64,000 bases of DNA from Fusarium oxysporum f. sp. lycopersici 4287 (Eukaryota > Ascomycota > Sordariomycetes > Hypocreales > Nectriaceae). The stretch spans positions 715,136-779,135 of the forward strand of contig NC_030999.1 of NCBI RefSeq assembly GCF_000149955.1. The letters are read 5' to 3'. Of this stretch, positions 4,214-53,617 are shown in pieces; positions within the stretch are counted from its first letter, which is position 1; every line of letters begins with the position of its first letter. The translations under genes and the position numbers were made by a program. Below the pieces are notes generated by a model. That model had not been told where the DNA came from, did not search any database, and saw only the letters and a list, made by a program, of their open reading frames with translations.

Positions 4214-4365
4214 TGTTGGAGATCACAAATGTGAGACGACCAAGTCGGTGGCAAGGTGTGGAACAAGGTGGAACATTCCACGGAGGTGGTGCCTGTACAT
4301 AAACAGTAGCTCTCCTACTGCATCTTTTGAATGAATTAAGAAACATGGATCTTCCCATTTCAACA
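4214..4365 (+). repeat. Copia-1 5' LTR
   Basis: 152 bp, TGTTGGAGATC...CATTTCAACA, preceded by the CTTTC target duplication. It should hold the promoter for the genomic RNA. No clear TATA element was identified. Confidence 0.95.
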
Positions 4366-4380
4366 GGTTATGAGCCCGGG
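4366..4380 (+). other. Copia-1 primer-binding site (initiator tRNA-Met anticodon arm)
   Basis: GGTTATGAGCCCGGG abuts the 5' LTR. Its complement CCCGGGCTCATAACC contains GGGCTCATAACC, the anticodon stem-loop sequence (anticodon CAU) of eukaryotic initiator tRNA-Met. This is the priming mode known from Drosophila copia, which uses a half-tRNA rather than the tRNA 3' end. The same site follows the 5' LTRs of Copia-2 and Copia-3. Confidence 0.85.
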
Positions 4381-4931
4381 AGGCTAAACTAAATCTAAAG
4401 CTGAGTCTCCTACCTAATCATCCATCCCTTACTCACAAGGACCTTACAGTCCCTTCCACTGCAGCGGAGACTCAACAGCGGTCTTGGACCCTGCCAGAAT
4501 TATGGCCCTTCATCCTGCTGTCTCTTGAACGAAGAACCCGGTACTTGATCATTTTCCAATCTCGATGCTTTCTTCCCTTTATCACACAGTCAGATGGAAA
4601 TGACCTGCAGAAAAGCTCTTGATTTTTCTATCTAGGCTGTTGTGTTGAACTTGCTTTTTGGGAAACACAGATCACACCAACCTCTGACTGGAAGTCCGGA
4701 CTTCCGGGCTGCCGGTCTAAACAGCCTGTCTGAACAGCTGGAAGACCTTCCTTCCGGTTTCATCAAATGTATGACCTTTTGCTCTGTTGGATGTGGCACG
4801 CCTCTGCAAGGTTTCCACCACCTAGCGTGTCTGCGGGTGCTATCTATAAGAAGCACGTCCTAGACTTCCTGGCTTACCTCTACCTTCATCGAAAACAAGC
4901 CAACAACATCAACACATTACATTACTTCAAT

Positions 4932-7900
4932 ATGTCAGACGGCAAAGACTCGAATCTGAGCGGAAATCTTTCCGGAGTTGCCAAGCTTGAATCCTCTGAA
5001 GGCTGGATCAACTGGAACGAGGAAATCCGAGACCTACTGGCCCTGTCTGGTTATGACGATCTCCTGGTGAGAAAACGAGACCCACCGGTGCAAGGCAATC
5101 TCTCGGACGTCGACTTCGAAGAAAAGCTAGATGCTTGGCACCAGAGACAAGCACGGGCGTGCGGAGCAGTTCGATATCGGCTTGGTTTCCGTCCCAGACA
5201 GGAAGTCCAAGGTCTCAATAACTTAGCGAACATCCTTAAAACGCTGGAGCAGCACTTCAAACCAAAGGGTAGCAGCGTATTCCACGACCTCCAGCAAAAC
5301 TTCGATCGGCTCACTCTGGGCAACTGCGAAAGTGTATCCGACTTCTCTCGGCAATTACGAAAGACCCGAGACCAAGTCCTTCAACTAGACGAAACTAGTC
5401 AGATTGGACAGCCACAACTAATAGACAAGTTTCTCAATGGACTTGGACCCAAGTATCAAGTATTCCTCACTGTATTTCTTCAGAGCCACAGCCTGCTACC
5501 CGAACGGAACCTCGAAGGCATCGTCACCAAGGCAGCTACTACTATCGAAGAAGCTACTAGAGCTGCTGAGCAGGAGGAACATAGTCAGCGGATGCAACAA
5601 CAGGACCAAGACCAAGAGACAATCAAGCACGCTGCTATGGTCGCTGCCTTCAAGGAGCAAAATTTCACGAGCTGTAGCTACTGCAAGAAGCTTGGGCATA
5701 CCTCAGATGCCTGCTGGTTACTTCACCCAGAGCTTAAGAAACGCCTGAACGATAAGCGATTCAGGAGAAAGCAGCGCCAAGATCATCCAAGAACCAACAA
5801 CCGAACCAGAAACGCGGACGAGGACGAAGTTACAAATGCTCTTGCCATCCATGCCGAACCCGTCATACAGCTGATGGCATACCAGGGTCAAAGGTTGAGC
5901 GATTTACTCGAGAAAGTACACGTGTTGGATAGCGGAGCTTCGATGCACACCTTTTGCAAAAGGGAAAACTTCAGCACCCTTCACCCCTGGAGCGGCGGAC
6001 AGACAGTTGGAATCGGCGAGACACAAATCACCCCTCAGGGTCTGGGAAACTATATCCTGCGGCTGAAAGGGCTTGACGGTCCGCGACACCTGGCGCTCGA
6101 CAACTCAGTATACTCCCCAGAAGGGCGTGTCAACCTTGTTTCGATATCTGCCTTAACAAGGAAGGGGGCAAAAATCTCTTTCGGCGACAACCAAGCCAGG
6201 GTGGCATACGACAATCAAGTAATCCTGACAGCCACTGTACGATCAGGGATCTATGTTGTGGACCAACCAGACGAAGCGATCAACGCAGCCTTGGCGTCAC
6301 TTGTTATTAGCGACCCCGAACTTCAAATATGGCACGAAAGACTCGGACATCTAAGCGAGAACGGAATCAAGGCCCTGAGGGGAATGGCGCACGGTATTCA
6401 TCCGATTCTACGCGGAGAAAATTGCGAACCTTGCATAGTTGGAAAACAGAAAGAGCGCCCACACCAAAAGTCAATCCGGAAAGGGACGTGCCCGCTAGAA
6501 TGCGTCCATGCAGACATTGCAGGGCCGTTTCCAGACACTGCCTATGACGGCTCGCGATATTGGGTTGTCTTCGTCGACGACTTTACCCGCATGGGCTGGG
6601 CATACGCGGTCAGGGAAAAGTCTGAGTTCACAAGGTGCTTCAAATATTTCCTCGACACGTATGAGAGGCCGGAACGTCGGTGCCATTACCTTCACGTTGA
6701 CCAGGGTGGCGAAAACCGCAGTGACCAGCTATGCATCTTCTGCGACAACAAGGGCATCAGCATCTACTATACTGCGACCGATCAGCATGAGCAGAATGGG
6801 ATTGCGGAGGCCTTTAATCGTGTGCTTCAAGAAAAGGTTACACCCACACTCGAGCGATCGAACCTGCCGCGAAAGCTCTGGCCCTATATCCTCTACGCGG
6901 CCGTGTATATACGGAATAGAAGCCCTAGCAAGGCCCTGAACAAGACGCCCTATGAGGCGTGGTTCGGAGACAAGCCAGACCTCTCTCATCTCCGCGTTAT
7001 TGGTGCAAATGGATGGGCCATATTGCCATCCGCCAAGAGACAAAAGCTACGTGCAAAGACGATTCAGTGTCGACTTCTTGGATATCAAGGCTCCAGTAAC
7101 TACATTGTTGTAGACAACAATAGCCGAGTCTTCATCGCCAACAATGTCATCTTCGACGAATCCAGCTTTCACGAGGCAACAGGAACACCTACTGGATCAA
7201 AGAGAACGAGAAGCGAGGGACCTACCTTGTATCCAGAGCCAGAACCTTCACCCAAGAAAGCAGCTCCGCCACGACACGATGCCATCCCACAGGTTGAAGA
7301 GATCATGTCGGAGGATGAAACAGGCACTATTCACGTACGAACATCCGAGCCTCATCATGACTCGACCGGGCCGACAGACTGGGACGAAGAGCTCCGAGTC
7401 TCGCAGAGATCGACCAAGGCAAAGCTTCCTTCAAGATACCTGCTCTTAGGAACCAATACTCTCACAAACCTCGTGTGCGCCCACGTCAATCTTGCGGCTT
7501 CCTTGGAAGACGAGGCGGAGCCCCGAACGATAAAGGAAGCCCAAGATTCACTTCAGTGGGAGAACTGGCTCAAGGGAATGACAGCCGAGATGGACTCCAT
7601 TAAGGAGAACGGAGTCTACACCTTGGCAAAGCTGCCACCAGACCGGAAGGCACTAAGGGGGAAGTGGGTATTCAAACTCAAGAGGGGAGCTAATGGAGAA
7701 ATCCTGCGGTTCAAAGCACGCTACGTGGCCCGAGGCTTCGAGCAACAAGAAGGAATCGACTACAACGAGACGTTTGCCTCGGTCGTCAAGCCTATGACTT
7801 ACAAGGCAATTTTTGCTATAGCCGCAGCGCTTGACCTCGAGCTCGAACAAATGGATGTCAAAACTGCCTTTCTCTACGGGAATATCGACGAAGAGATCTA

Positions 7901-9068
7901 CGTTGGGCAACCAGAGGGCTTCGATGACGGAACCGGAAGAGTCTGGAAACTACGAAAAGCCTTATACGGGCTGAAGCAATCACCTAGAATATGGTACCAG
8001 ACTCTCTCTTTATTCCTCCAAGAGCAGGGATTCCAGCCTCTCGTTTCCGACATGGGTGTCTTCGTCAATGGCCAAACCTACATTGCCGTTTACGTGGACG
8101 ACTTGCTCATCGCAGGACCATCAAAAAGGGACATCAAGATGATCAAACAAAGCCTCAACCAGCGGTTCAGCATGACAGACCTGGGGCCTTGTCACTTCTA
8201 CCTAGGGATGTCCATTACTCGGAACCGCAGACAGCGGAGACTGAGCCTCTCGCAAAAGGGGTACATTGAGAAAGTCCTGAAGGAATTCGGACTATGGGAC
8301 TCCAAACCGACTGCGACCCCAGTGGCAACAGCGAAGCTAGAACCCGCCCTTGACGATGAAGACACTCACTCAGATCGCAAGCACTGGTACGCTAAAGCAA
8401 TCGGATGTCTGATGTACGCAATGCTAGGGACCAGACCAGACATTGCATTCGGCGTCTCCCTATGCAGCCGCTATCTCGCAAATCCAACTAAGGCCCAGGA
8501 AGCCGCAGTGAAGCGCATAATGAGGTACCTACGAGGAACCTTCGACTTCAAGCTCGAGTTCCGAGGGGATATTCGCCCGTTGACGGGCTACACGGACTCG
8601 GACTGGGCCGGAGACACTGAGACTAGAAGGTCCACTGCGGGATACATCTTCAACGTTGGCAGCGGTGCGATAAGCTGGGCCGCAAAGCGACAGCAATCAG
8701 TGGCGCTGTCTACCTGTGAAGCTGAATACATGGGGCAGACACAAGCAACCAAGGAAGCCATCTGGTTGCGAACCTTGCTAAAAGAACTACTGGGAGGTCT
8801 AAACGCCACAGACCAAATCGCTGCCACAATTATCTACGGAGACAACCAAGGGGCAATTGCAATGACTAAGAACCCCCAATACCACTCCCGCACAAAGCAC
8901 ATTGCGATTCAGGAGCACTTTGTGCGAGAAAAGACGGCCAGCGGAGAAGTTGAGATGAACTATATCCCGACCGACAAACAAGTGGCTGATGGACTCACAA
9001 AAGCACTTCCCAAGGATCGTTTTCAGTTGTTCCGGAAGGCTCTGGGAGTTGTCGGATCGGACGAGTAA
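4932..9068 (+). CDS. Copia-1 gag-pol polyprotein
   Basis: A 1378-aa polyprotein. The start is taken at the ATG of MSDGKDSNLSG. The frame stays open about 55 codons upstream, but that part lies in the leader. In order: gag with zinc knuckle CSYCKKLGHTSDACW near residue 246; aspartic protease HVLDSGASMHTF near 329; integrase zinc motif from LWHERLGHL (about 466) to CEPC (about 498), then catalytic HADIAG (about 526), HVDQGGENR (about 588) and EQNGIAEAFNR (about 620); reverse transcriptase ending in YVDDLLIAG near 1053; RNase H GYTDSDWAGD near 1218; C-terminal KQVADGLTKAL. All catalytic residues are present and there are no stops. Gag and Pol share one frame, so their ratio must be set another way, for example by processing. 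Confidence 0.95.
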   Translation: MSDGKDSNLSGNLSGVAKLESSEGWINWNEEIRDLLALSGYDDLLVRKRDPPVQGNLSDVDFEEKLDAWHQRQARACGAVRYRLGFRPRQEVQGLNNLANILKTLEQHFKPKGSSVFHDLQQNFDRLTLGNCESVSDFSRQLRKTRDQVLQLDETSQIGQPQLIDKFLNGLGPKYQVFLTVFLQSHSLLPERNLEGIVTKAATTIEEATRAAEQEEHSQRMQQQDQDQETIKHAAMVAAFKEQNFTSCSYCKKLGHTSDACWLLHPELKKRLNDKRFRRKQRQDHPRTNNRTRNADEDEVTNALAIHAEPVIQLMAYQGQRLSDLLEKVHVLDSGASMHTFCKRENFSTLHPWSGGQTVGIGETQITPQGLGNYILRLKGLDGPRHLALDNSVYSPEGRVNLVSISALTRKGAKISFGDNQARVAYDNQVILTATVRSGIYVVDQPDEAINAALASLVISDPELQIWHERLGHLSENGIKALRGMAHGIHPILRGENCEPCIVGKQKERPHQKSIRKGTCPLECVHADIAGPFPDTAYDGSRYWVVFVDDFTRMGWAYAVREKSEFTRCFKYFLDTYERPERRCHYLHVDQGGENRSDQLCIFCDNKGISIYYTATDQHEQNGIAEAFNRVLQEKVTPTLERSNLPRKLWPYILYAAVYIRNRSPSKALNKTPYEAWFGDKPDLSHLRVIGANGWAILPSAKRQKLRAKTIQCRLLGYQGSSNYIVVDNNSRVFIANNVIFDESSFHEATGTPTGSKRTRSEGPTLYPEPEPSPKKAAPPRHDAIPQVEEIMSEDETGTIHVRTSEPHHDSTGPTDWDEELRVSQRSTKAKLPSRYLLLGTNTLTNLVCAHVNLAASLEDEAEPRTIKEAQDSLQWENWLKGMTAEMDSIKENGVYTLAKLPPDRKALRGKWVFKLKRGANGEILRFKARYVARGFEQQEGIDYNETFASVVKPMTYKAIFAIAAALDLELEQMDVKTAFLYGNIDEEIYVGQPEGFDDGTGRVWKLRKALYGLKQSPRIWYQTLSLFLQEQGFQPLVSDMGVFVNGQTYIAVYVDDLLIAGPSKRDIKMIKQSLNQRFSMTDLGPCHFYLGMSITRNRRQRRLSLSQKGYIEKVLKEFGLWDSKPTATPVATAKLEPALDDEDTHSDRKHWYAKAIGCLMYAMLGTRPDIAFGVSLCSRYLANPTKAQEAAVKRIMRYLRGTFDFKLEFRGDIRPLTGYTDSDWAGDTETRRSTAGYIFNVGSGAISWAAKRQQSVALSTCEAEYMGQTQATKEAIWLRTLLKELLGGLNATDQIAATIIYGDNQGAIAMTKNPQYHSRTKHIAIQEHFVREKTASGEVEMNYIPTDKQVADGLTKALPKDRFQLFRKALGVVGSDE

Positions 9069-9300
9069 AACTATTCGGGCCCGAAAGGGGATCCACGCTA
9101 CGAAGCTGTGCGATCTCTGGAATACATTCAACAGATGTTACCCTTAGCCCACTGCGCGAGGATCCAGTGGGAGTCTACCGCCCGATTATCACAAACAATG
9201 GCAGCTCGTCCAACCCTCACTACAACTACCGCTAGAAGGTCAACAGTGACCTGGCCGCATGGGTTGCAATTCCTGACCGGACCAAGACTCCTAAAGGTCT

Positions 9301-9553
9301 GGCAAAAGACGACTCGAAGGCTATGGGGGCTGTATACAGCGGACCAAAGCCGGGAAGGAAAGCTGCATGGGTTGCAAGTCCCGAACTGGATCATGGACCT
9401 TGGTACTGCTAGCAGCCGCAGTATTGCCAACGAGCACCAAGGACAGGAGGCTGCTAACACGGCCGAGAGCGCTGCTAACACGGCGTAATGGATCCGGCAA
9501 AAGATGAACTCAAAGGCCCGGGGGCTGTATTCAGTGGACTGAGGCCGGGAAGT
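9301..9553 (+). repeat. direct repeats in the Copia-1 3' untranslated region
   Basis: A 57-bp segment at 9301-9357 recurs, diverged, at about 9496-9553; both end with GGCCGGGAAG or AGCCGGGAAG. A shorter GCATGGGTTGCAA repeat occurs near 9258 and 9364. These lie between the pol stop and the 3' LTR. An antisense frame across this region has no features of a gene. Confidence 0.7.
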
Positions 9554-9778
9554 ATGAGAAGCGCATACAGCGCTCATCGAGGATGGCACAGATATGGGCT
9601 GCAGTGGGAGCCTTGTCATATCTAAGACAATATTCCCTACGCGCCCAGGACTGCGTCGAGCCTTGACGCGTTCAGCAACACTCTTTCCTCTTTCACCCAC
9701 GAAGGTGTTTTAAGGTTTTAATGAGGTTGCTGAGATCTTAGATAAGTCCAGGTACCCACAGTCTTGCTCGAGTGGGAG

Positions 9779-9930
9779 TGTTGGAGATCACAAATGTGAG
9801 ACGACCAAGTCGGTGGCAAGGTGTGGAACAAGGTGGAACATTCCACGGAGGTGGTGCCTGTACATAAACAGTAGCTCTCCTACTGCATCTTTTGAATGAA
9901 TTAAGAAACATGGATCTTCCCATTTCAACA
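9779..9930 (+). repeat. Copia-1 3' LTR
   Basis: 152 bp, apparently identical to the 5' LTR, preceded by the purine tract AGTGGGAG (9771-9778) and followed by the target duplication CTTTC (9931-9935). Confidence 0.95.
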
Positions 9931-10122
9931 CTTTCGTGCAGCAGCCCATGTGTGCGTCAGAAATCATAAACGTAGTGATGGCAGTGCATGACCAAGATCG
10001 TGCTCACAACGTGGAAAGGAGTGTAGCCAACGACAACCGGGGTTATGGGAGCGAAAGGCAAAAGCTGGGGGACACAAAAAATATATGGCTTCAAGACACA
10101 GCACGGAAGAACGTTCAGGATA
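9931..10122 (+). repeat. right flank of Copia-1, duplicated at 12909-13100
   Basis: This 192-bp non-transposon flank recurs after the second Copia-1 copy with about two differences (for example CAGCAGCCCATG against CAGCAGCGCATG). The two copies diverge sharply after GTTCAGGATA, at 10122 and 13100. A shared flank means one insertion was later duplicated, or one locus was assembled twice. Confidence 0.85.
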
Positions 10123-10219
10123 AGCATAATCTTGACGGCCTCAGGAGACAACTGCGTTAGTAATTAATCTAGTTGTATGCTTTAAGTAACGAAAAAAATA
10201 AAAATAAAAATAAGAATGT

Positions 10220-10402
10220 TCAATCAACACATTTGCTGCTGCTCTTCACATTCACTATAACCTTTGAGCACGCTTAGTGCGATGCCATCACTCTTGATAA
10301 ACATTCACGTAAGAGTGGACAGGGTCAAACGACAGTTTAGGGTACAGGACGATTTATAAATAGAAGTGTAGGGTGATTGACTGTAGATCTGCTAGCAAGG
10401 CG
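10220..10402 (-). repeat. SINE-like dispersed repeat, copy A
   Basis: About 180 bp, the reverse complement of the repeat at 33421-33602 with scattered mismatches. Read on the minus strand it starts GCCTTGCTAGCAGATC, ends with CAAATGTGTTGATTG, and is followed by a simple-sequence tail built from TATTTT units (10189-10214 on the plus strand). The variable tails in the three copies suggest retroposition. No clear pol III A or B box was found. Confidence 0.7.
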
Positions 10403-10412
10403 CTCTCGCGAC

Positions 10413-10889
10413 TCATGTCCATCGGTCAGCATTCCACTCTGAGAACACCGTCTTTGCCAACCAAATATCCTCTGAAAAGCTTTGACTTGGCCGATTCCGC
10501 TTGCTTGAATCGCCAGTCACCTTCTTGGCATCCATCATCGTCTCCGACTTCCACGCTCGCTTGTTCGGCACCAGCTGCGCCAACGGACGCCGAGGCGGCT
10601 TGAGGAGCAAAGCCCGTTCAAAGTCGATCACCATAACCCTGTTGGTCTCAGGATTGAATAACATGTTTGCAAGTCGCACATCTTTGTGGACCACGCCCTC
10701 TCGATGCATGGCTCTCAACGACCGAATGGCCTCGTCTTCGAGCGGCCTGTCCGTGTCGCCAATTCTCTGTGCTCTGTCGATGCTGCAGCCTCCCCCAGGA
10801 CAGAAATGTCATGTGCACCACGTAGACCCGGTGGTCATAGTAGTACGTCTTGTTCATCGATCCAAGGTCAATGGCACCCAGGAGAACAG
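10413..10889 (-). pseudogene. protein-kinase-like C-terminal fragment
   Basis: The minus strand encodes a kinase-like catalytic loop, VVHKDVRLANMLF, and a DFE variant of the DFG motif (MVIDFERALLLK). This is a pattern I associate with fungal orphan kinase-like proteins. Upstream residues (LLGAIDLGSMNKTYYYDHRV) fit the lobe before the catalytic loop but lie in another frame; the shift falls near 10790 in a run of Gs. The N-terminal lobe should lie in the assembly gap that begins at 10890. It could be a real gene with a sequencing error or a frameshifted relic. Confidence 0.6.
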
Positions 10890-10989
10890 NNNNNNNNNNN
10901 NNNNNNNNNNNNNNNNNNNNNNNNNNNNNNNNNNNNNNNNNNNNNNNNNNNNNNNNNNNNNNNNNNNNNNNNNNNNNNNNNNNNNNNNN
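10890..10989. other. assembly gap (100 N)
   Basis: Exactly 100 Ns, the usual placeholder for a gap of unknown size. It joins a kinase-like gene to the middle of a Copia-1 copy, so adjacency across it is not established. Any open frame running through it is artificial. Confidence 0.98.
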
Positions 10990-10990
10990 A

Positions 10991-12046
10991 TTCCTCCAAG
11001 AGCAGGGATTCCAGCCTCTCGTTTCCGACATGGGTGTCTTCGTCAATGGCCAAACCTACATTGCCGTTTACGTGGACGACTTGCTCATCGCAGGACCATC
11101 AAAAAGGGACATCAAGATGATCAAACAAAGCCTCAACCAGCGGTTCAGCATGACAGACCTGGGGCCTTGTCACTTCTACCTAGGGATGTCCATTACTCGG
11201 AACCGCAGACAGCGGAGACTGAGCCTCTCGCAAAAGGGGTACATTGAGAAAGTCCTGAAGGAATTCGGACTATGGGACTCCAAACCGACTGCGACCCCAG
11301 TGGCAACAGCGAAGCTAGAACCCGCCCTTGACGATGAAGACACTCACTCAGATCGCAAGCACTGGTACGCTAAAGCAATCGGATGTCTGATGTACGCAAT
11401 GCTAGGGACCAGACCAGACATTGCATTCGGCGTCTCCCTATGCAGCCGCTATCTCGCAAATCCAACTAAGGCCCAGGAAGCCGCAGTGAAGCGCATAATG
11501 AGGTACCTACGAGGAACCTTCGACTTCAAGCTCGAGTTCCGAGGGGATATTCGCCCGTTGACGGGCTACACGGACTCGGACTGGGCCGGAGACACTGAGA
11601 CTAGAAGGTCCACTGCGGGATACATCTTCAACGTTGGCAGCGGTGCGATAAGCTGGGCCGCAAAGCGACAGCAATCAGTGGCGCTGTCTACCTGTGAAGC
11701 TGAATACATGGGGCAGACACAAGCAACCAAGGAAGCCATCTGGTTGCGAACCTTGCTAAAAGAACTACTGGGAGGTCTAAACGCCACAGACCAAATCGCT
11801 GCCACAATTATCTACGGAGACAACCAAGGGGCAATTGCAATGACTAAGAACCCCCAATACCACTCCCGCACAAAGCACATTGCGATTCAGGAGCACTTTG
11901 TGCGAGAAAAGACGGCCAGCGGAGAAGTTGAGATGAACTATATCCCGACCGACAAACAAGTGGCAGATGGACTCACAAAAGCACTTCCCAAGGATCGTTT
12001 TCAGTTGTTCCGGAAGGCTCTGGGAGTTGTCGGACCGGACGAGTAA
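10991..12046 (+). CDS. Copia-1 second copy: partial pol (RT end and RNase H)
   Basis: The 3' part of the polyprotein, from the RT palm segment (YVDDLLIAG present) through RNase H (GYTDSDWAGD, STCEAEYMGQ, GDNQGAIAM) to the normal stop. It is open throughout and starts at the gap edge. It matches the C-terminal third of the complete copy except for a few substitutions, one of which changes S to P near the end (VVGPDE against VVGSDE). Confidence 0.92.
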   Translation, partial: FLQEQGFQPLVSDMGVFVNGQTYIAVYVDDLLIAGPSKRDIKMIKQSLNQRFSMTDLGPCHFYLGMSITRNRRQRRLSLSQKGYIEKVLKEFGLWDSKPTATPVATAKLEPALDDEDTHSDRKHWYAKAIGCLMYAMLGTRPDIAFGVSLCSRYLANPTKAQEAAVKRIMRYLRGTFDFKLEFRGDIRPLTGYTDSDWAGDTETRRSTAGYIFNVGSGAISWAAKRQQSVALSTCEAEYMGQTQATKEAIWLRTLLKELLGGLNATDQIAATIIYGDNQGAIAMTKNPQYHSRTKHIAIQEHFVREKTASGEVEMNYIPTDKQVADGLTKALPKDRFQLFRKALGVVGPDE

Positions 12047-12756
12047 AACTATTCGGGCCCGAAAGGGGATCCACGCTACGAAGCTGTGCGATCTCTGGAA
12101 TACATTCAACAGATGTTACCCTTAGCCCACTGCGCGAGGATCCAGTGGGAGTCTACCGCCCGATTATCACAAACAATGGCAGCTCGTCCAACCCTCACTA
12201 CAACTACCGCTAGAAGGTCAACAGTGACCTGGCCGCATGGGTTGCAATTCCTGACCGGACCAAGACTCCTAAAGGTCTGGCAAAAGACGACTCGAAGGCT
12301 ATGGGGGCTGTATACAGCGGACCAAAGCCGGGAAGGAAAGCTGCATGGGTTGCAAGTCCCGAACTGGATCATGGACCTTGGTACTGCTAGCAGCCGCAGT
12401 ATTGCCAACGAGCACCAAGGACAGGAGGCTGCTAACACGGCCGAGAGCGCTGCTAACACGGCGTAATGGATCCGGCAAAAGATGAACTCAAAGGCCCGGG
12501 GGCTGTATTCAGTGGACTGAGGCCGGGAAGTATGAGAAGCGCATACAGCGCTCATCGAGGATGGCACAGATATGGGCTGCAGTGGGAGCCTTGTCATATC
12601 TAAGACAATATTCCCTACGCGCCCAGGACTGCGTCGAGCCTTGACGCGTTCAGCAACACTCTTTCCTCTTTCACCCACGAAGGTGTTTTAAGGTTTTAAT
12701 GAGGTTGCTGAGATCTTAGATAAGTCCAGGTACCCACAGTCTTGCTCGAGTGGGAG

Positions 12757-12908
12757 TGTTGGAGATCACAAATGTGAGACGACCAAGTCGGTGGCAAGGT
12801 GTGGAACAAGGTGGAACATTCCACGGAGGTGGTGCCTGTACATAAACAGTAGCTCTCCTACTGCATCTTTTGAATGAATTAAGAAACATGGATCTTCCCA
12901 TTTCAACA
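12757..12908 (+). repeat. Copia-1 second copy 3' LTR
   Basis: 152 bp, TGTTGGAG...TTTCAACA, matching both LTRs of the complete copy, followed by CTTTC and the duplicated flank. Confidence 0.95.
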
Positions 12909-16001: not shown

Positions 16002-16222
16002 ATTCTAGAGTGAGAAATTGGGATCGTGTTGGGCACGTCAAGGAGCGCGAATACAGAACACGGTTGTTGGTTCGAAAAACAAGTTGAGAGCTGTGCGTGC
16101 TTGATTTAAAGCAGTATTTAATCGTATGACGGAACATTGTTAGTCCAGTTCGGAAAGTCCGAGCGCTGGAAGTGGGTCACCCCATTTGCCGCTAAACCTT
16201 TTCTCAACCGGGGGTCTGCACT

Positions 16223-16320
16223 GGGCGTCAATAGGTGCGCACCTGGATGCGCACGTAAGTGTCACGTGTTGCGCACCCGGTGCGTCTGTAAGGGAGTTAT
16301 GTAAGCCCAACACCCTTGTA
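16223..16320 (+). repeat. MULE left terminal inverted repeat
   Basis: 98 bp beginning GGGCGTCAATAGGTGCGCAC and ending CAACACCCTTGTA. Matches the right TIR except T/C at position 6. Contains nested short palindromes (GGTGCGCACC), possible transposase-binding sites. Confidence 0.95.
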
Positions 16321-16391
16321 GCTACCCCTTTCCCGTTGATAAAGAGCCTCACTTCGCCGCGCAACGATCTACTCAAATCATCTCTCCTAGA

Positions 16392-16725
16392 ATGAATCCA
16401 GTTACAGCTACTCGTCAATTTTCTGATGACTGCCTGCCTCCTGAACGCGAGTATGGCTCTCGGGAAGCCCTACACGCCGCGATCAATGCATGGGCAGCTC
16501 CCAGGGGCTATGCGTTTGTCACTGGGAAGTCGAAGAAAACAGAGAGCGGCAGACGAATTGTTTTCTTCAGCTGTGACCGTGGAGGAGCACCTCCAAAGGC
16601 CTCGGGCGTACGGCAACGGTCAACTACAACACGGCGTACAGGGTGTCAATTCTCAGTCCTTGCGAAGGAGGCCTTGGATAAGACAACGTGGCGCCTTACA
16701 CACCGTCCTGGCAGCGAGTTTGCCC
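16392..16725 (+). pseudogene. MULE transposase, 5' part (split by Copia-2)
   Basis: The first 111 codons from ATG (MNPVTATRQ). They encode a FAR1/WRKY-GCM1-type zinc DNA-binding domain: YGSREALHAAINAWA, then FFSC, GCQFSV and WRLTHRPGSEFA. The frame breaks at 16725, where the Copia-2 LTR begins. The missing zinc ligands, HHNHEPS, resume at 22749. Removing Copia-2 and one copy of TGCCC restores the frame exactly (gag-ttt-gcc-cat-cac). Confidence 0.9.
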
Positions 16726-16860
16726 TGTTAAAGCAAAAACGGGTTGATTGTATTGTTGTTAGTTCTAAGTTACATCTGTCTGAGAGGAGCACAGCTCCTT
16801 ACATATATCCACATCCCAGCCACCAGCAGATCGGACCACCTTAGTCACACTGTCTCAACA
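16726..16860 (-). repeat. Copia-2 3' LTR
   Basis: 135 bp; reads TGTTAAAGC...TCTCAACA on the plus strand, so it is the 3' LTR of the minus-strand element. The left target duplication TGCCC precedes it. Confidence 0.95.
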
Positions 16861-17027
16861 CTCCCACTTGAGCTGCTGTTGCGCTTGATGTGCACGCCTG
16901 TCGAGCCTCGTTAAAACCCCAAAACACACCTTCGTGGGTGAAAACTGCAGGGAAAGAGCTATCTCGACATGAGCGCTTAGGATCTCTTAATGGTCTCGTG
17001 CAATCTTAGGGCAGTTGGTCTTCTTCT

Positions 17028-17700
17028 GTCCGCAGAAGATCTCCCTCCAAGTTCATCTTTGCACCTTTCCTTTCAGTCCAGTGCGATCCTGAACTTGCGG
17101 GTCTTCTTCTTTTCCACAGAAGATCTCCTACTGACACCCATCTTTGCACGGTCTTGCAAGCTTTCTTGGGACCGCAGGTCTTCTTCTATGCACAGAAGAT
17201 CTCCTGCCTCTGCCCGTCTCTGCAGGTCTTGCAATCTTTCTTTGGCATCGTAGGTCTTCTTCTATGCACAGAAGATCTCCCACTGAAGCCCATCTCTGCA
17301 GGTTTCGCAAGCTTTCTTGGGACTGCAGGTCTTCTTCTGTCCACAGAAAATCTTCTGCCTATGCCCATCTCTGCAGGTCTTGCGATCTTGGGGTTGCAGG
17401 TCTTCTATCAGGTCTTCTATCCGCAGAAGATCTCCTGCCTACACCCGTCTCTGCAGGTCTTGAAGTCTTTCTTGAAATTGTAGGTCTCTTGTCCATGATG
17501 GGTCTCCCACTTCAGTCCATCTTTGCACGTTCCTCACGCTCGGCACAACCTCGAGACCATGGATTTCCTTCTACTTGTTTAGAAGCTCTCCCATTCTAAT
17601 TCATCTTTGCGCCTTCCTCACGTTTCCGTGCAATCTTAGATCCGTGGGTCTCCTGTATGTTCATGGCAGGTCTCCTGTTTTGGTTCATCTCTGCACCTTC
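17028..17700 (-). repeat. diverged minisatellite in the Copia-2 3' untranslated region
   Basis: Eight to nine imperfect copies of a unit of about 75 bp. Each holds a GTCTTCTTCTNTCCACAGAAGATCT-like core followed by CCCATCTCTGCAGGTCTTG-like sequence. Central units (17100-17480) are most alike and the outer ones decay. They lie between the pol stop and the 3' LTR, as do the repeats in Copia-1. AGAAGATCTNC recurs and forms a partial palindrome around AGATCT. Confidence 0.85.
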
Positions 17701-20700
17701 TCATGGTCGTCGTTCTTTGAGACCTAGTGCGTTTCTAAACAATAGGAAACGATCCTTTGGCAACGCCTTTGTTAGACCGTCGGCCACTTGTTTGCCTGTC
17801 GGAATGTACTGGAACTCAATGGTTCCATCATTGACTTTCTCTCTGCAGTAATGATGCTGAATATCAATGTGCTTGGTTCTTGTATGGAACTGCGGATTCT
17901 TCGACATTGCGATCGCTCCTTGGTTGTCCCCGAAAATTACAGTTGTCTTTAGTTCTGGAACCTCCTTGTATTCTTTCAACAGTTCTTGGAGCAGAGCTCG
18001 CAGCCAGACTGCTTCTTTTGCGGCTGCGGTTTGCCCCATGTATTCTGCTTCGCATGAAGACAGGGCCACTGTTCTTTGTCTCTTCGAGCTCCAGCTGATA
18101 GCGCCCGTACCAAGGTTGAACACATATCCAGACGTTGATCTTCGAGTTTCCAGGTCTCCCGCCCAATCCGAGTCGGTGTAGCCGAGGAGAGGTTGCAGTC
18201 CTCCTTGGTACACTAGTTCCAGATTTTGCGATCCCTTAAGGTATCGAAAGATACGCTTGACAGCTGTCTGATGCTCATTGGTTGGGTTCGCTAGGTGTCG
18301 ACTGCATAAGGAGACAGCAAAAGCAATTTCGGGTCTCGTCCCCAGCATGAGATACATCAGGGACCCGATCGCCTTGGCATACCACTCTTTTAGTTTGTCC
18401 GCTGCCTTGTAGTCAGGGCCTGGTTCTCCGAACTTGCTAGTCGAAACTGGTGTGGCATTGGGAGCACACTGGTCCATTCCAAAGTCTCTAAGTACTTTCT
18501 CGAGGTAGGTCGTCTGCGACAAGAAGATCGATCGGGTGGCTCTGTCTCTTCTTACGGACATGCCCAGGTAGTATTTGCATGGGCCCAGGTCCGTCATCTT
18601 GAACTTATTGCACAGATCTTGCTTGACCGCCACGATCTCGTCCTTGGAGGGCCCGGCAATAAGTAGATCGTCCACATAGACCGCAATGAACGTGTGACCT
18701 TTCACAAAGACTCCCATATCTGAAAGTAAAGGCTTGAACCCGAGGGTCGCGAGGAATGTCGAGAGAGTCTCATACCACACTCTTGGTGCTTGCTTCAGTC
18801 CATACAAGGCTCTCAAGAGCTTGCAGACTCTCCCACTTCCATCGTCGAATCCTTCGGGTTGCTGGACGTATATCTCCTCAGTCACGAGGCCATAGAGGAA
18901 TGCTGTCTTGACGTCCATTTGTTCCAGTTCCAAATCGAGTGCTGCCGCGATGGCAAATATCATCTTGTAGCTCATCGGCTTGACAACAGAGGCGAAGGTT
19001 TCGTTGAAGTCAATTCCTTCCCTTTGCTCGAATCCTCTCACGACAAATCGCGCTTTGTACCGTAGAACTTGCCCATTTTCTCCTCTTTTGAGCTTAAACA
19101 CCCATTTGCCTCGAAGAGCCTTTCGTCCTGGGGGAAGCGTGACTAAGGTCCAGACACCATTCTCGACCAGAGATCCGTGTTCATCCTTCAATCCTCCCCA
19201 CCAGAGTTTTCCATGTACACCCTGCGTGGCTTCCTTGAAGGTTCTTGGCTCGGACTGATCGATATCGCGAGCGACTAGATACAGTTGTTCTGCAACCGTT
19301 GCTAGGAAGGCGAAGTTTGTGCTGGCGAGTATGTATCTCGATGGCAGCTGTCCCCTGGTCGATCTTTCGGGCAGCCGAGACTCTGCATGCTTCTCTGTTT
19401 CTTCCGATGACACTTCGCGCTCGTCTGTGGCAACATGAATACTCGATCTGGTTGACTCTTGGTCTGGATCCCATCCTGTATCTCCCACTGGGGGCTCATC
19501 CGGCGTCGTCTCTCCACGGCCCGTTTCCCCGCTTCTGTTCGCCTCTCTCGACGCGATCGGAAGGGGCGACGGCTCTAGAACGATGGCATTTTCCACATCG
19601 CTATCCTCTTCTCCGACTACTCGTCGTCGTTGTGATGGTCTCTGGTCACTCATTTGATGCGTGAGATTGTCGAGTGTTGGTTCGACATTTTTGATGTTTT
19701 CAGAGAAGACAACATTGTTAGACACAAAGACTCGTCCCCGTTCGTCAAGGAGTATATAGTTTGTACTGCCCTGATAGCCGAGAAGCTGACAGGGAATACT
19801 CTTCGACTGCATCTTCTTTCGCTTAGAGGATGGAAGCAGAGCCCATCCTCGTGAGCCAAGAACTCGCAGATGGCTGAGGTCAGGAACATCTCCATACCAG
19901 GCTTGGTAAGGAGTAGTAGAAATGCTCGCCGTAGGACAGAGATTTCGGATGCGGTTCACTGCCTTGAGGAAGTACGGCCACCATTTCAAAGCGAGTCCGG
20001 ATTTGAGCAGTGTCGGTGTGAGTTTTTCCAGGATGATTCGATTGAGAACTTCAGCCAATCCATTTTGTTCGTGTTGCTCAGTTCCTGTGTAAGAGAGTTT
20101 GATTCCTCTGTCCCGGCATAGTCGGGTCAAACTGTGGCTTCGATTCTCTCCCCCTCGGTCGAGGTGCAGGAAGTGACATCGTCTTTCCGGTCTCTCGAAC
20201 TGTTGCAACAGATGATGGAAGCACTCTTCAAACTCTGACCGTTCTTTGACTGGGTACACCCAGGACATTTGAGTAAAGTCATCAATAAAGCAAACCCAGT
20301 ACCGGCTGCCGTCTACTCCCACTTCTGGGAATGGTCCGGCAATATCTGCATGAATACACTCCAGAGGGTAAATGCCTTTCTTGATCGGTCGGACATGGGG
20401 ACATTCCCTGAGTTTGCCCTGTACGCAGGCTCCACATGGGTTTGATGTAGAATCATCCGGTCGAATTCCAGTAGACATATTCATCAGTCTCTTGATATTC
20501 CTCTCTCCCAAATGTGCGAGTCGCTCGTGCCAAAGGTGCAGTCGAGGATCTCCCACCGAAAAAGATGCCAAAGCGGTTTGAAAGGGACGGTCCTCAACTT
20601 CATCGACTACATATACGCCTGATATTCTTGTCGCAGTGAGGACGACTTTTCCCTTGTTTGTAACCACTGCCTTCCCATTCCGAAAGACAACTTCTGCTCC

Positions 20701-21969
20701 CTTCTTCTCTAGTGCTGACACAGACAAGAGGTTCGAATGTCCTTCTGGAACATAAAGAGCGTTATCGAGAGTAACATTTTGTGATCCCTTAGGCCCTTGA
20801 ACGCGGAGGCAGTACGTTCCGCACCCTCCTGGCATGACCTTTATGTCCGCAATACCATTGATGGGGAGACCGTGGTACCTGTGAAGTGATGTAAAGTTCT
20901 CCTGTCGACAAAAGATATGCGAGGAGGCGCCACTATCCAAGACGTGGATACGTTCGAGGGCCCGAGTTTGAAGAGATGCTTGAAGACCGGAAGGTCCGAG
21001 TGATGAGCCAATCAATCCAAGGTGGCCTTGGAAGTCATTTTGCCAGAGTGCCAGTCGAGCTTGGTCAGGTTGGAGGTGTGCAGGAGTTGTATACGTGGCA
21101 GATTCCAGTTCATTATTCGTCTTCTCCCTTTCCTTCTCCCGAACCTGCATTTTACGTTGTCGTCTCTCGTAACCAGCTTTGATACGATCTCTTCTAAGTT
21201 CTGGGTGGAGCCTCCAACAAGTAGACCTGTCATGCCCTTTTCTTCCACAGTATCCACAGCATGATGTATCCTGGGCCATCATGGCTCTATGTGCCATCTT
21301 GGCCGTGGCGCTTCTTTGTCTGTCCTCCTCCTGAGGTGCGGCAAAGATGGCGGTTTCAAACGTAACGGCCTCTTTGAGAACAACGTTGCGATTGCTCGGA
21401 TTTCGGATAGGAAGGATGTTGTGATTCTGATTGAAGGCAGTGAGAAACAGTTCATAGTCCGGACCAAGTCCACAAAGGAACTTATTGACAAAATGCGGTT
21501 CCCCGATCTGGCAGGTGTCATCCATCTCCAAGAGTTCAGCCCTGACTTGACGTAGCTTATTTGCGTATTCCATGACCGAATCGCAAGATTCAAGCGTGAG
21601 TTCTTGATATCTGCGGTCGAGCTCTTGGAAGATGGCGCTTCCGACGGGCCGATATCGGGTCTCAAGGTGGTTGATCATGCCCTGAGCCGTCGAGATCCCT
21701 GTGGTAAACACTCGGGCGTTATAACCGAGACGACTTCGAATGGCACCGCATGCTCGATCTTGGCGGCTCCTCCAGGCCTCAATCTGGGTTGCAAGGTCGT
21801 TACCTTCTGTTGGTGGTTGAGCATTCCTGGTCAGAAGGTCTCCATATCCACACATGTCCAGAAGGTCGAGCATTTCTCTCTTCCAGGTCAGCCACTGGCT
21901 GGTTTGCTCCAGCTTTGGAATGGTGCCGGAACTGCCTATGAGATTGAGCGATTCTTTGGAAAGGGACAT
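17701..21969 (-). CDS. Copia-2 gag-pol polyprotein
   Basis: A 1422-aa open frame from ATG (MSLSKESLNL). Zinc knuckle CGYCGRKGHDRSTCW near residue 238; protease HVLDSGASSHIF near 342; integrase LWHERLAHL (about 476), CGACVQGK, HADIAGPF (about 540), HLDRGGENR (about 603), EQNGLAEVLNR (about 630); RT with YVDDLLIAG near 1095; RNase H GYTDSDWAGD near 1262, SSCEAEYMGQ, GDNQGAIAM; C-terminal KQVADGLTKAL. Domain order is copia and all catalytic residues are present. It is clearly related to Copia-1 along its length but diverged, and its LTRs are unrelated in sequence. Confidence 0.95.
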   Translation of the reverse strand: MSLSKESLNLIGSSGTIPKLEQTSQWLTWKREMLDLLDMCGYGDLLTRNAQPPTEGNDLATQIEAWRSRQDRACGAIRSRLGYNARVFTTGISTAQGMINHLETRYRPVGSAIFQELDRRYQELTLESCDSVMEYANKLRQVRAELLEMDDTCQIGEPHFVNKFLCGLGPDYELFLTAFNQNHNILPIRNPSNRNVVLKEAVTFETAIFAAPQEEDRQRSATAKMAHRAMMAQDTSCCGYCGRKGHDRSTCWRLHPELRRDRIKAGYERRQRKMQVREKEREKTNNELESATYTTPAHLQPDQARLALWQNDFQGHLGLIGSSLGPSGLQASLQTRALERIHVLDSGASSHIFCRQENFTSLHRYHGLPINGIADIKVMPGGCGTYCLRVQGPKGSQNVTLDNALYVPEGHSNLLSVSALEKKGAEVVFRNGKAVVTNKGKVVLTATRISGVYVVDEVEDRPFQTALASFSVGDPRLHLWHERLAHLGERNIKRLMNMSTGIRPDDSTSNPCGACVQGKLRECPHVRPIKKGIYPLECIHADIAGPFPEVGVDGSRYWVCFIDDFTQMSWVYPVKERSEFEECFHHLLQQFERPERRCHFLHLDRGGENRSHSLTRLCRDRGIKLSYTGTEQHEQNGLAEVLNRIILEKLTPTLLKSGLALKWWPYFLKAVNRIRNLCPTASISTTPYQAWYGDVPDLSHLRVLGSRGWALLPSSKRKKMQSKSIPCQLLGYQGSTNYILLDERGRVFVSNNVVFSENIKNVEPTLDNLTHQMSDQRPSQRRRVVGEEDSDVENAIVLEPSPLPIASREANRSGETGRGETTPDEPPVGDTGWDPDQESTRSSIHVATDEREVSSEETEKHAESRLPERSTRGQLPSRYILASTNFAFLATVAEQLYLVARDIDQSEPRTFKEATQGVHGKLWWGGLKDEHGSLVENGVWTLVTLPPGRKALRGKWVFKLKRGENGQVLRYKARFVVRGFEQREGIDFNETFASVVKPMSYKMIFAIAAALDLELEQMDVKTAFLYGLVTEEIYVQQPEGFDDGSGRVCKLLRALYGLKQAPRVWYETLSTFLATLGFKPLLSDMGVFVKGHTFIAVYVDDLLIAGPSKDEIVAVKQDLCNKFKMTDLGPCKYYLGMSVRRDRATRSIFLSQTTYLEKVLRDFGMDQCAPNATPVSTSKFGEPGPDYKAADKLKEWYAKAIGSLMYLMLGTRPEIAFAVSLCSRHLANPTNEHQTAVKRIFRYLKGSQNLELVYQGGLQPLLGYTDSDWAGDLETRRSTSGYVFNLGTGAISWSSKRQRTVALSSCEAEYMGQTAAAKEAVWLRALLQELLKEYKEVPELKTTVIFGDNQGAIAMSKNPQFHTRTKHIDIQHHYCREKVNDGTIEFQYIPTGKQVADGLTKALPKDRFLLFRNALGLKERRP

Positions 21970-22593
21970 GATAGATTCTCGTAGAAGCTAATGATTAAGA
22001 GACATGAGGGCGAACGGCAATCGACCAGTCTTGGATCGAGTCTTGGGAATGAATCTTGGCTGCGTTCGGCAACATGATAATGCCGTGCAAATAGGGGTTA
22101 TCGGAGTCGGGTAGAGATTGTCCGAAGGGTGAAACGCCTAGTGGTCTCAGATATCCATATCATTCCCTCCGTCTGGAGGAAGGGCAATGATCTGATGTCG
22201 ATCATGTTGCAAACCACGTTTCAGGCATTCTTGGGCTATGTGGGCGTAGGTCGTCCGACCGGAGAACTTCAGCAATCTCAGACTGAAAGGCCGGTCTGGT
22301 CTGGCGAATCCATCTACCAGATTGCAATCTGGGAAAATTTTGGTTATTCAAGATTCGACGATTTAAATTGGATGCAATAAACGGAGGGTCAAAGGATCTT
22401 TCCGTAAACGTTTCTAGACATATCCTGTTAGCGGATCTGCAAGCTCTATCAGAGATCCAAGAGGGAAATAGCTCCAATTAAGCTGAATGCGTATGCGCAG
22501 TGGAAGGAAGCCTTTCGACTTCTTGTGTTATCTTGGAAAGTAGAAAGGAGACAGAAAACACTCAGCTTTTTGGTTGGAGAAAAGGTCGTGCCC

Positions 22594-22608
22594 TCCGGGC
22601 TCATAACC
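22594..22608 (-). other. Copia-2 primer-binding site
   Basis: Plus strand reads TCCGGGCTCATAACC directly before the 5' LTR, so the element RNA carries GGTTATGAGCCCGGA, complementary to the anticodon arm of initiator tRNA-Met. Confidence 0.85.
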
Positions 22609-22743
22609 TGTTAAAGCAAAAACGGGTTGATTGTATTGTTGTTAGTTCTAAGTTACATCTGTCTGAGAGGAGCACAGCTCCTTACATATATCCACATCCC
22701 AGCCACCAGCAGATCGGACCACCTTAGCCACACTGTCTCAACA
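22609..22743 (-). repeat. Copia-2 5' LTR
   Basis: 135 bp, one base different from the partner LTR at 16726. Followed by the target duplication TGCCC at 22744-22748. Confidence 0.95.
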
Positions 22744-22748
22744 TGCCC

Positions 22749-24961
22749 ATCACAACCACGAGCCAAGCACAAGCATGTCTGCACATCCAGTCCATCGTCA
22801 ACTATCCAATGCAGATAGGTCAACTATTAACAACCTTGCAAACGCTGGTGTAGCACCGAAAGAGATCAGGTCCTACCTACGTCAGAACACAGAGTCTCAT
22901 GCCACCCAGCAAGACATCTACAACTGCATTGCACAAGGCAAACGAGACCAGAAGAAGGGCCAGAGCACAATCCAAGCTCTTGCTAATGAGCTTGAGGCTG
23001 AGGGTTTCTGGAGTCGAATACGCTTCGACGAGGATGGTCGGGTTACAGCTGTGTTGTTTGCCCACCCAGAGTCGCTAACATACCTTAAGTCATACCCGGA
23101 TATACTTATATTGGACTGCACATATAAGACAAACAAGTATAGGATGCCTCTTCTCGATATCGTCGGTGTTGATGCCTGTCAACGATCATTCTGCATCGCC
23201 TTCGCCTTCCTCAGCGGCGAGGAGGAGAAGGACTACATCTGGGCGTTAGATCGGCTACGTTCAATGTACGAAGCCTGTAGCGCAAGGCTGCCATCTGTGA
23301 TCCTTACAGACCGCTGTCTGGCCTGCATGAATGCGGTATCTCATTGTTTCCCGGCTGCAGTATCGCTTCTATGCCTTTGGCATGCCAACAAGGCAGTCCT
23401 GCGTTACTGCCAGCCAAGCTTTATGCGTCATAACGATGCGGCTCAAAAGCCTCAAGGCCACCAAGAGTGGAAGGACTTCTACGGAAGATGGCATGAGCTC
23501 GTGGCATCGGCAAATGAGGAGACATTTGAAGACAGGCTTCAGCAGCTCAAAGAGCGCTATGCTTCAGCTCACGCCCGGGAGGTCGCCTACATCATCGAAA
23601 CATGGCTTGACCTCTACAAAACAAAGCTCGTGAAAGCTTGGGTTGATCGGTATCTTCACTTTGAGAATGTGGTTACATCTCGAGGCGAGGGTATTCATCA
23701 GCTCATCAAGGTGTACCTTGATACTTCCCAGCTAGATCTCTTTGAGGCCTGGAGGGCTATCAAGCTGGCGATACTTAACCAAGTAGCTGAGCTCCGAGCA
23801 AACCAGGCGAAGCAGCAAATCCGAACACCCATAGAACTCTCAGGGAGTCTATACAGCATCATACGAGGCTGGGTATCTCACGAGGCATTGCGGAAGGTTG
23901 AGGCGCAGAGAAAGCGGCTCCAACAGGACAGACTCCCTGCCTGCACAGGAGTCTTCTCAGCAACGCTTGGGCTCCCTTGCGCTCACACAATTGAGCCTCT
24001 TCTACAACAAGCCCAGCCGCTTCAACTACACCACTTCCATACGCATTGGCATCTTCAACGAGAAGGAAACCCTCAATTGCTCATAGAGCCCCGCCGTCAG
24101 TTCGATCAGGTGCCAGCTACGTCAACATTGCCGAAGACTAGCACTCAGCGCGAGCCATGTGCATTTGAGATCGTCGAACAAGCATCACAGACGAGAGCCA
24201 ACCCCAAATGTTCAAGATGTCATACACAGGGCCACAGGATGAGCTCAAAGGCATGCCCATTGCGATATGCGCATCTTGTATCTCCCTCAGCTTCTACAGC
24301 GCCCCCAAATACGCTGCCGCCATCGACTACACCAAGTTCGGCTCAACAGCCAGTTCCCGATCCATCCTTATGCTCAATTTTGCCACAGCAGCAGGTAGCG
24401 CCGCCAGCGGCACTATGTGATCAAGAGATGGTGCCGTCCCCGCCAGATATAATAGCACTGCCATCCTCATCAGCGGATGTACCTCCACCACCAGATATGC
24501 CGCCATCGGTACCAGCGTCTGGGCCAGACATACGCTATGATGACCCTCGTGCTATATATGATCGATATATTGCAGCACGGATGGCATGGTATAACAAGCT
24601 GCCTCGAGGTAGCTTAAAGACTAACCAGGAATATCGAAAGGCAATGGGCCTCCCTCAACGCTACGATAAGACAAGTTACAGCTGGTGTTTGGATTATAAG
24701 CAGATGGGTAAGCGATGCACATCAACGATACCTGGACGGGAGTGGACTAAGGAGGAGATGATGGCGTACTTGGATTGGACCAGGGTAGAAGATGAACGTG
24801 TGGAGAGGCAAGTCGCCCAGGAGATGGGCGACAACCCTCTGGCGAACAGGCGAACAGGCATGAAGGAGATTTGGAAGAGGGTTGAGCAGGACATGATCGA
24901 CCAACAAGCTCTGTACTCGAACGATAAACTGGCTGAAGACTGTATCATAGTTACTGCTTAG
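22749..24961 (+). pseudogene. MULE transposase, 3' part (catalytic and zinc-knuckle regions)
   Basis: Continues the split gene to its TAG; the two parts total 848 codons. The first residues HHNHEPS complete the N-terminal zinc domain. The MULE DDE core follows: ILDCTYKTN (first Asp), a YIWALDRL helix, ILTDRCLACMN (second Asp), CLWHANKAVL, and SRGEGIHQLIK (catalytic Glu region). GLPCAHTI looks like a SWIM finger and CSRCHTQGHRMSSKAC like a zinc knuckle. The C-terminal part has WYNKLPRGS and charged helices. No stop or frameshift is seen apart from the Copia-2 insertion, so inactivation is recent. Confidence 0.92.
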
Positions 24962-25087
24962 ATTATTATTAACGCCTACATTACTTATATCCCAATTATG
25001 GCACCGTGAGAAAAAATCTGTATAGCAGAGCAGTTCGTCATCTAGAGATTAGAAGCAATACAATAAAATACAATAGGCTGGCTGGCA

Positions 25088-25185
25088 TACAAGGGTGTTG
25101 GGCTTACATAACTCCCTTACAGACGCACCGGGTGCGCAACACGTGACACTTACGTGCGCATCCAGGTGCGCACCTATTGGCGCCC
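25088..25185 (-). repeat. MULE right terminal inverted repeat
   Basis: 98 bp, the inverse of the left TIR with one mismatch, followed by the 9-bp target duplication GTCTGCACT. Confidence 0.95.
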
Positions 25186-25299
25186 GTCTGCACTGTAGTG
25201 ATGACTCATTTCTCCATCGGAAATAACAGACACGAACGCCACGATAAATGGCGAAGCAACGTGGGACACCACAGAATGCCATATTTTGACTCGCTAGAA

Positions 25300-40274: not shown

Positions 40275-41490
40275 ATGGATATCGGTCTCAACCCCGAAGA
40301 GCTCTCTACTGATTTACTCTTCGTTGTTTGTGCTCGTTGTGGGGAGGAGAGACCGGAGAGTGCCTTCAGAGCAAAGAGGCAGTCTGCTGGGCAAACTAAG
40401 CAATGCATAGACTGCCGTAACCAGCGCGTTTCTCATGTAAGTTCTGCCTTCCTCGTCTATAAGTCTCTTAACCCTCATCAAATGAAGCATTCTAGATCCA
40501 AAGTCGTGCTCCAGACGCTGCGGAACATTGCACTTCGTCCATCCTCACCTGGCAGACCTGCCACGAAGAGAACCGAAGGAGATGCTGGCCTATCGCCTCC
40601 CAACGAGAGATCCGGAACCCAGCCTACATCGCCAGAGAAGCTACGGCAACTTCATACAGCTAGGAGTTTATTCGGAGAGTCAATTAGCCAGCCGCACGTA
40701 GTGCTAGGGACGCCAATTCCACCAACCCAACAAAGCTCGCGGCTCTTCCGGGCTCTAGCTCCGTCACCGCCTGTGCAGCCAACGACCCATCCACTCGTCT
40801 CACATTCTGATCCATCTACTCTTCGAAGCAGCACACCTGGTGTGGATTACCCTTACTTGGCCACCAGGTTCCACAAGGGGGGGAAGGACTCGCAAGATGA
40901 TTCCTTGAAGGCTGGGGCGAGGGCCAAGCTGGCTGTTATCCAGCGCGACCATCGTTCACGACGCCGTGCAGGGGAGACTGTGTCACTGACTCCCACAATA
41001 TCTCAACTTGGCTTCTTGGAAGATTTTGAGGGTCCTGGAGAAGGTATCCTTGTTCTGTGGCCCCAGTAGTTTGTTCAGGCTAACCACGGAACGTAGATGG
41101 GAGTCAAGATCAACTACGACCGAGTGGGTTTCTAGATGGGGATGGGATAATCAAGGAAGGGGATGACAGGGGACAGTTCTCTGAATCTGATATTGACGCC
41201 GATGACTATTTCAACTTGCTGCTTTCACCTGATCGACCACGGAGGTACCTCAAACAATTAGGGGTAGAGTCTGATTCCGATCTAGGGGACGAAGACGAGA
41301 ACGACGATAATGATTGCGTGGATGGAAGCCCTCTTCGCCATCGCTTGCGGCAGCCTTCCGCACAGCTAAGGCGTGGTCGCCGTGGTTCCTGCCCCTGGTA
41401 CAGGAGGGCGGCCAAGAAAATCTCGAAGGCAAACTCGATCGTCGATGCCGCCACGGCGTATTCGGAGTCCAGTGATAATTCCACCTGAAG
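40275..41490 (+). pseudogene. Helitron protein, N-terminal exons
   Basis: ATG (MDIGLNPEEL) opens a short zinc-finger region: VVCARCGEERPESAF ... CIDCRNQ. A GTAAGT at 40437 with acceptor at 40514 (78 nt) keeps phase into a Ser/Pro-rich linker. A second intron, 41044-41096 (53 nt, GTATCC...CTAAC...GTAG), joins FEGPGE to an acidic segment (SDSDLGDEDENDDND). That frame runs to 41488, overlapping the start of the main frame at 41373. The two must be joined by an indel near 41380-41400 or a junction I could not place. Typical of the N-terminus of fungal Helitron proteins. Confidence 0.55.
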
Positions 41491-48670: not shown

Positions 48671-48871
48671 TGTTGGAAAAATCCGGGAATCCCCCTTATC
48701 TTCAGGATTCAGACTGTTAGTCTGAAAGTCCTAGATTTAAAGTTCAAAGTCCTAGATGAAACTATCTAGAGATATAAACCCGAGAAGAGCTCTCATCTCA
48801 ATAATGAAAAACCAAGTTCCATAAAAAAATATATACTTTCACCCAGCACACACTGCGCAATATAAACAACA
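48671..48871 (+). repeat. solo LTR, Copia-3 family, opposite orientation
   Basis: 201 bp, TGTTGGAAAAATCCGGG ... ATATAAACAACA, the reverse complement of the Copia-3 LTR sequence at 50166 with moderate divergence. Flanked by the 5-bp duplication CTTCT at 48666-48670 and 48872-48876. Confidence 0.92.
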
Positions 48872-48992
48872 CTTCTGGGCAAACAGGCTCATCTCCAATG
48901 CAATTGGCCTTCCGAGATCTGCATCATTTACATCTCGGATAGGTAATACCATACCTGAAAACTTTTGGAGACGTGATTGTCGAACCTGATGC

Positions 48993-49099
48993 CGATGGAG
49001 TAGTGTCGCACTGAGCGTGCTTAAAGGGTTAGAGTGAATATGATGAGCAGCAGCAAATGTGTTGATTGATATGTTATGTTATGTTATGTTATGTTATGT
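48993..49099 (+). repeat. SINE-like dispersed repeat, copy C, 5'-truncated, with (ATGTT)n tail
   Basis: About 78 bp matching the 3' half of copies A and B, ending CAAATGTGTTGATTGAT, followed by about five ATGTT units (49071-49099). Truncation at the 5' end and a 3' simple tail fit target-primed reverse transcription. Confidence 0.7.
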
Positions 49100-50359: not shown

Positions 50360-50379
50360 CGCCCCCATCCACCTTGTCT

Positions 50380-53600: not shown

Positions 53601-53617
53601 CTTACAGCATGGGTCGT

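Follow-up and report, generated by a model that had tools for sequence, protein, structure and literature searches.

When one transposon lies broken inside another, what can the site tell us of how each arrived—and of why the first element landed where it did? We address this question for a 64,000-nucleotide stretch of the genome of Fusarium oxysporum f. sp. lycopersici 4287 (Fol4287; C14:715136-779135), hereafter the window, in which a Copia retrotransposon splits the transposase gene of a Mutator-like element (MULE) that is likely Hop3. Insertions of this MULE and of two related families, here called A and C, are placed non-randomly: a short palindromic word stands exactly 8 bases outside the target-site duplication (TSD), usually on one side only. 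This is a statistical rule drawn from one genome; taken as a single explanation, the nest, the Hop3-type MULE beside the word TGACTCA and the non-random target rule form an account that we hold with good confidence. Taken alone, the nest is an ordinary event that happens to be visible unusually clearly, and its family has most likely already been named; what merits pursuit is the target rule, which may already be in print—we found no report of it in the literature searched, a coverage that excluded the original Hop paper and most subscription papers.

The footprints of both insertions can be read to the base. The MULE is bounded by terminal inverted repeats (TIRs) of 98 bp (16223..16320 on the + strand and 25088..25185 on the - strand) with a single mismatch, at TIR base 6, and is flanked by two copies of the 9-bp TSD GTCTGCACT (16214..16222 and 25186..25194); the long TIRs place it among the MULEs, as does the TSD, which falls within the MULE-type range of 8-11 bp and agrees with the 9 or 10 bp of its relatives. 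Its 5' arm (16223..16725, +, 503 bp) carries transposase codons 1-111, and its 3' arm (22749..25185, +, 2,437 bp) holds the remaining transposase with a MULE DDE domain and a CCHC knuckle. Between the arms lies the Copia element (16726..22743, -, 6,018 bp), which runs antisense to the MULE and has long terminal repeats (LTRs) of 135 bp (16726-16860 and 22609-22743) that end in TG...CA and a 5-bp duplication, TGCCC (16721..16725 and 22744..22748). It entered between bases 1 and 2 of codon 112, immediately before H113. All the repeat and duplication lengths given in the original prediction proved exact. Each insertion has its own TSDs, and identical uninterrupted sister copies exist; both steps are thereby shown, and the MULE inserted first, the Copia element second, inside codon 112, breaking this copy.

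The sister copies serve as a natural empty site. The genome (61.24 Mb, 71 contigs) was searched with the MULE TIR, as had been proposed along with the nest, and with two inner parts of the element; this gave many copies, and 20 complete ones with both ends were examined. Sixteen of them match the two window arms without a difference in 2,940 bp and have TGCCC once at the Copia position, which bears out the claim that removing the Copia element and one TGCCC restores a single 848-codon transposase. The remaining four differ slightly: L028 has the usual length and a divergent 3' arm, L029 and L030 each have one base more than the window MULE, and L026 has one base fewer, in the 5' arm. All but two of the 20 copies, L026 and L029, keep the 848-codon frame open; with 18 intact frames, the family is likely to be young and to have moved recently. 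The suggestion that related intact copies may be active thus stands as to the intact relatives. Insertions are fewer than copies, because several copies with common flanks (L009/L011; L010/L023/L024/L028; L021/L025/L026/L029) stem from duplicated segments.

Contig C14 has 6 of the copies, 4 of them uninterrupted, and it is because these counts equal the published ones that the name Hop3 is likely: Hop3, a Mutator element, is given as having 6 copies, 4 of them full length, on the Fol4287 pathogenicity chromosome (PMC3599309). The likeness is one of copy counts, not of sequence, and the passages of that paper on Hop3 state no target rule (PMC3599309).

The rule concerns the word TKA-N(1-2)-TMA, with positions counted outward, so that base 8 follows the TSD and 7 further bases. 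In the window the host word TGACTCA (25202..25208) lies beyond the right TSD copy and starts at base 8. The recurring word had been recorded from Hop3 flanks before the flanks of related families were viewed, among them family A, whose TIRs begin GGGGCCCC and whose protein is 59% identical. Among TSD-paired insertions, one or both sides have the word starting exactly at base 8 in 10 of 13 Hop3 cases, in all 9 of family A and in the single one of family C (a pair with a 10-bp TSD), or 20 of 23 combined; both sides have it in 2 of the 20 (L016, L077). When two sites in target repeats common to other sites (L079, L087) are removed, 18 of 21 remain, and the plain triplet TTA is at base 8 in 15 of 21.

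The peak is a single base wide. No other offset between 1 and 35 has the word in more than 1 of the 21 insertions (4 of 714 tests), and random placement in the window, repeated for 2,000 sets, never gives more than 3 at any offset. Given the window background of 0.1625% per position, the binomial p for 18 of 21 is ~2e-42, and it is still ~2e-24 at tenfold background. The spacing is still measured from the TSD edge where the TSD is 10 bp long (L077/L078; L112/L113), and a repeat present in two copies has been hit in both by family A (L083, L087), once on either side of the same TTAGTAA and each time 7 bases from it.

The same kind of word is found within the elements. In the window MULE it reads TTATGTAA and occupies bases 75-82 of the left TIR (16297..16304), with its counterpart, read on the - strand, in the right TIR (25104..25111); a survey of the terminal 160 bases at each end gives one word per TIR in Hop3 and families A, B and C, at base 60-77. 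A fourth family, D, has none in its TIR, and one D end has a word at base 142, outside the ~92-bp TIR. At L009/L011, Hop3 has inserted in a family A TIR, 7 bases from that TIR's word. Words at targets include TGACTCA, TTAGTAA, TTACTAA, TGACTAA and TTAGTCA, and they fit the form of a basic leucine zipper (bZIP) site—a palindrome of TGA/TTA half-sites around a 1- or 2-bp centre. The length of the centre depends on the family: it is 1 bp in 10 of 10 words at family A targets and 2 bp in 4 of 4 at family C targets (Fisher p 0.001), and it is mixed at Hop3 targets (1 bp in 4, 2 bp in 9).

Several observations weigh against the rule or restrict its reach. Three of the 13 Hop3 pairs have no word at base 8 (L019, L021, L027); the word is rarer at ends without a matching TSD (Hop3 2 of 6, A 0 of 4, C 2 of 4); and further single ends have it in only 4 of 11, two of these sharing one flank. 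Family D shows no word at base 8, neither in its one pair nor in any of nine single ends, and was rejected as a further case of the rule. Only after the family A flanks had been viewed was the word given its general form; by the pre-recorded words or their reverse complements, 7 of the 9 family A sites count, the other two having TTAATAA (L034) and TTAATCA (L081). Every site comes from one genome, and the families that follow the rule were all found via one query, in a genome with 134 MULE-domain candidates that include further families. Finally, the word in the TIRs has a 2-bp centre in family A and a 1-bp centre in family C, the reverse of their targets; because of this reversal, a single simple reader of both TIR and target is not certain. 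Family B, with one copy and no TSD, was left out of the counts; on its 3' side, TTACTTAA stands at base 9 if the end position is as assumed. Two more loci, L103 and L104, were rejected as further families for want of a convincing long TIR pair.

How might such spacing arise? In the mechanism that we consider most likely, and to which we give somewhat better than an even chance, the transposase is the reader of the word and positions strand transfer 7 bp away. A Hop3-type element, with its 9-bp TSD, 98-bp TIRs and 848-codon transposase, inserted beside TGACTCA; the transposase or one of its domains would recognise the palindrome in target DNA, and probably also in the TIR of the element itself; once bound, the subunit would fix strand transfer at a distance of 7 bp. 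Variation of the word's centre between element families favours an element-encoded reader. More tentatively, and with rather less than an even chance, Hop3-type transposases may have their own reader of bZIP-like palindromes, one protein serving TIR and target, so that every MULE TIR would be a landing pad at 7 bp. If true, this would be a driver of self-nesting among the DNA transposons of accessory chromosomes and would steer insertions toward regulatory DNA.

The strongest alternative, which we regard as doubtful, is that a host bZIP protein of the Yap1, Gcn4 or Atf type sits on the word and, as a tether, holds the transposition complex at a set distance from it. bZIP sites usually tolerate a 1- or a 2-bp centre, and tethering has a precedent in fission yeast, where Tf1 is associated with Atf1. 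More generally, insertion of Tf1 of Schizosaccharomyces pombe is guided by DNA-bound proteins, including a bZIP factor; it differs from the MULE described here in being an LTR retrotransposon directed by host factors. The words found at the targets also speak for a host protein, since they would suit such proteins and one of them, TTAGTAA, is described as a YAP1 response element (PMC3236459). However, there is one host, and yet the centre length varies by family, uniformly 1 bp in A and 2 bp in C. The expected 2-bp centre at most bZIP sites is CG, moreover, and the 2-bp centres at Hop3 targets (CC, GC, CA, TG and others) depart from it. Placement by something other than the transposase or a host bZIP factor is unlikely.

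We consider it very improbable that the word is not read at all, and that its enrichment arises from nesting in a few common repeats or in open, AT-rich promoter DNA. Some nesting is evident—L013 and L079 lie in one repeat, as do L083 and L087, and L009/L011 lie in a family A TIR—but the count of 18 of 21 remains without the two repeat-sharing sites, the peak is confined to one base, and the p value stays minute at tenfold background. That two Hop3 halves from separate loci were joined into the nest by the assembly is least credible of all: identical family copies can mislead an assembler, and ends are unmatched in 2 of 20 copies (L017, L030), but both TSD pairs match exactly, both arms stop to the base at the joint seen in sister copies, and the target word is in place.

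The base-exact spacing from insertion to word across related MULE families of one genome offers a simple handle on target capture. The rule could also help to explain why class II elements are clustered on the Fol pathogenicity chromosome, a clustering described in PMC3599309, and it predicts which sites of regulatory type are hit. Among known systems, Hop of Fusarium oxysporum is close in its dimensions (9-bp TSD, 99-bp TIR and 836 amino acids, against 9 bp, 98 bp and 848 here), a likeness by description, not by sequence (PMC5014426). MuTAnT of Medicago truncatula is likewise a MULE family whose target preference is defined; in contrast to a palindrome at fixed spacing, the preference described is for TA microsatellites (PMC4486113). 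Muta1 of Aedes aegypti, as described, resembles our element in being a MULE with near-identical copies and TSDs of 8-9 bp (PMC5225508).

The uninterrupted MULE product, of 848 residues, matches a MULE domain (PF10551, E = 6.7e-28; 5.1e-28 for the 3' half in the window) and a ZSWIM-type RNase H, and has a weak zinc-knuckle match just below the cut-off. In an alignment of 62 sequences, comprising the element's protein and 61 relatives, C61, H113, H115, D234, D299, C599, C602, H607 and C614 are invariant, and C85 and E425 are conserved at 90% or more; these agree with the zinc ligands and DDE residues that had been named from the letters, and such would be their roles. Three of the invariant residues (C61, H113, H115) and the near-invariant C85 fall in the N-terminal region, where the zinc DNA-binding domain of a MULE would be expected and where there is no Pfam match. 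The predicted fold of the whole protein has a mean predicted local distance difference test (pLDDT) score of 78.1, and its nearest structure is the IS256-type transposase of ISCth4 (PDB 6xgx, 6xg8); the match has 13% identity and leaves the N- and C-terminal parts outside, the list of structure matches being filled by the catalytic core (residues 184-549). A search of PDB sequences with the window's 3' half gave no match at 0.001. The C-terminal piece gave no Pfam match up to E 10, and predicted by itself it reaches a mean pLDDT of 46.8.

The open frame of the Copia element, 1,428 codons from stop to stop (17701..21987, -), has gag, integrase and reverse-transcriptase matches, with integrase (rve, residues 543-634) before reverse transcriptase (RVT_2, 943-1181) in the single frame. 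The LTRs differ from each other at one position, LTR base 120, and the closest other LTRs are 96% alike among the 40 of 88 candidates that were scored. The MULE was said to have been coding-competent until a recent insertion; the coding joint stands, whereas the LTRs are a poor basis for recency. Dating by 1 mismatch in 135 bp, beside 0 differences in 2,940 bp of the host MULE, was rejected because one event is too few to tell, and the intact sister copies are a cleaner test of the split gene. Between the frame and one LTR (17004-17611) there are diverged direct repeats with a spacing of ~76 bp.

Some further observations touch the other MULE families. Copies of one repeat hold insertions of four families (L013, L079, L101, L031, L094), a possible hot spot. 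Facing family C ends lie only 0.77 kb (C3:5048004-5048772) and 1.0 kb (C1:6803124-6804134) apart and are likely non-autonomous forms. A few bases outside family D ends, GTGCACGGGCC is often found (L089, L091, L097, L099, L100); perhaps this is another target word with looser spacing.

Elsewhere in the window there are other mobile elements. A second Copia element (4214-12908) has identical 152-nt repeats at 4214-4365, 9779-9930 and 12757-12908, an open frame of 1,444 codons at 4734-9068, and an internal repeat (8012-8311, equal to 10990-11289). A frame of 1,264 codons at 41370-45164 has Helitron-like N and PIF1 helicase domains. Within 48679-55127, identical 195-nt direct repeats (50165-50359 and 54933-55127) enclose frames with a split reverse-transcriptase match, and an inverted copy of the repeat, 88% alike, lies at 48679-48832. 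A neighbouring frame has relatives in Fusarium, the best named one, from F. oxysporum f. sp. radicis-lycopersici, at 57%.
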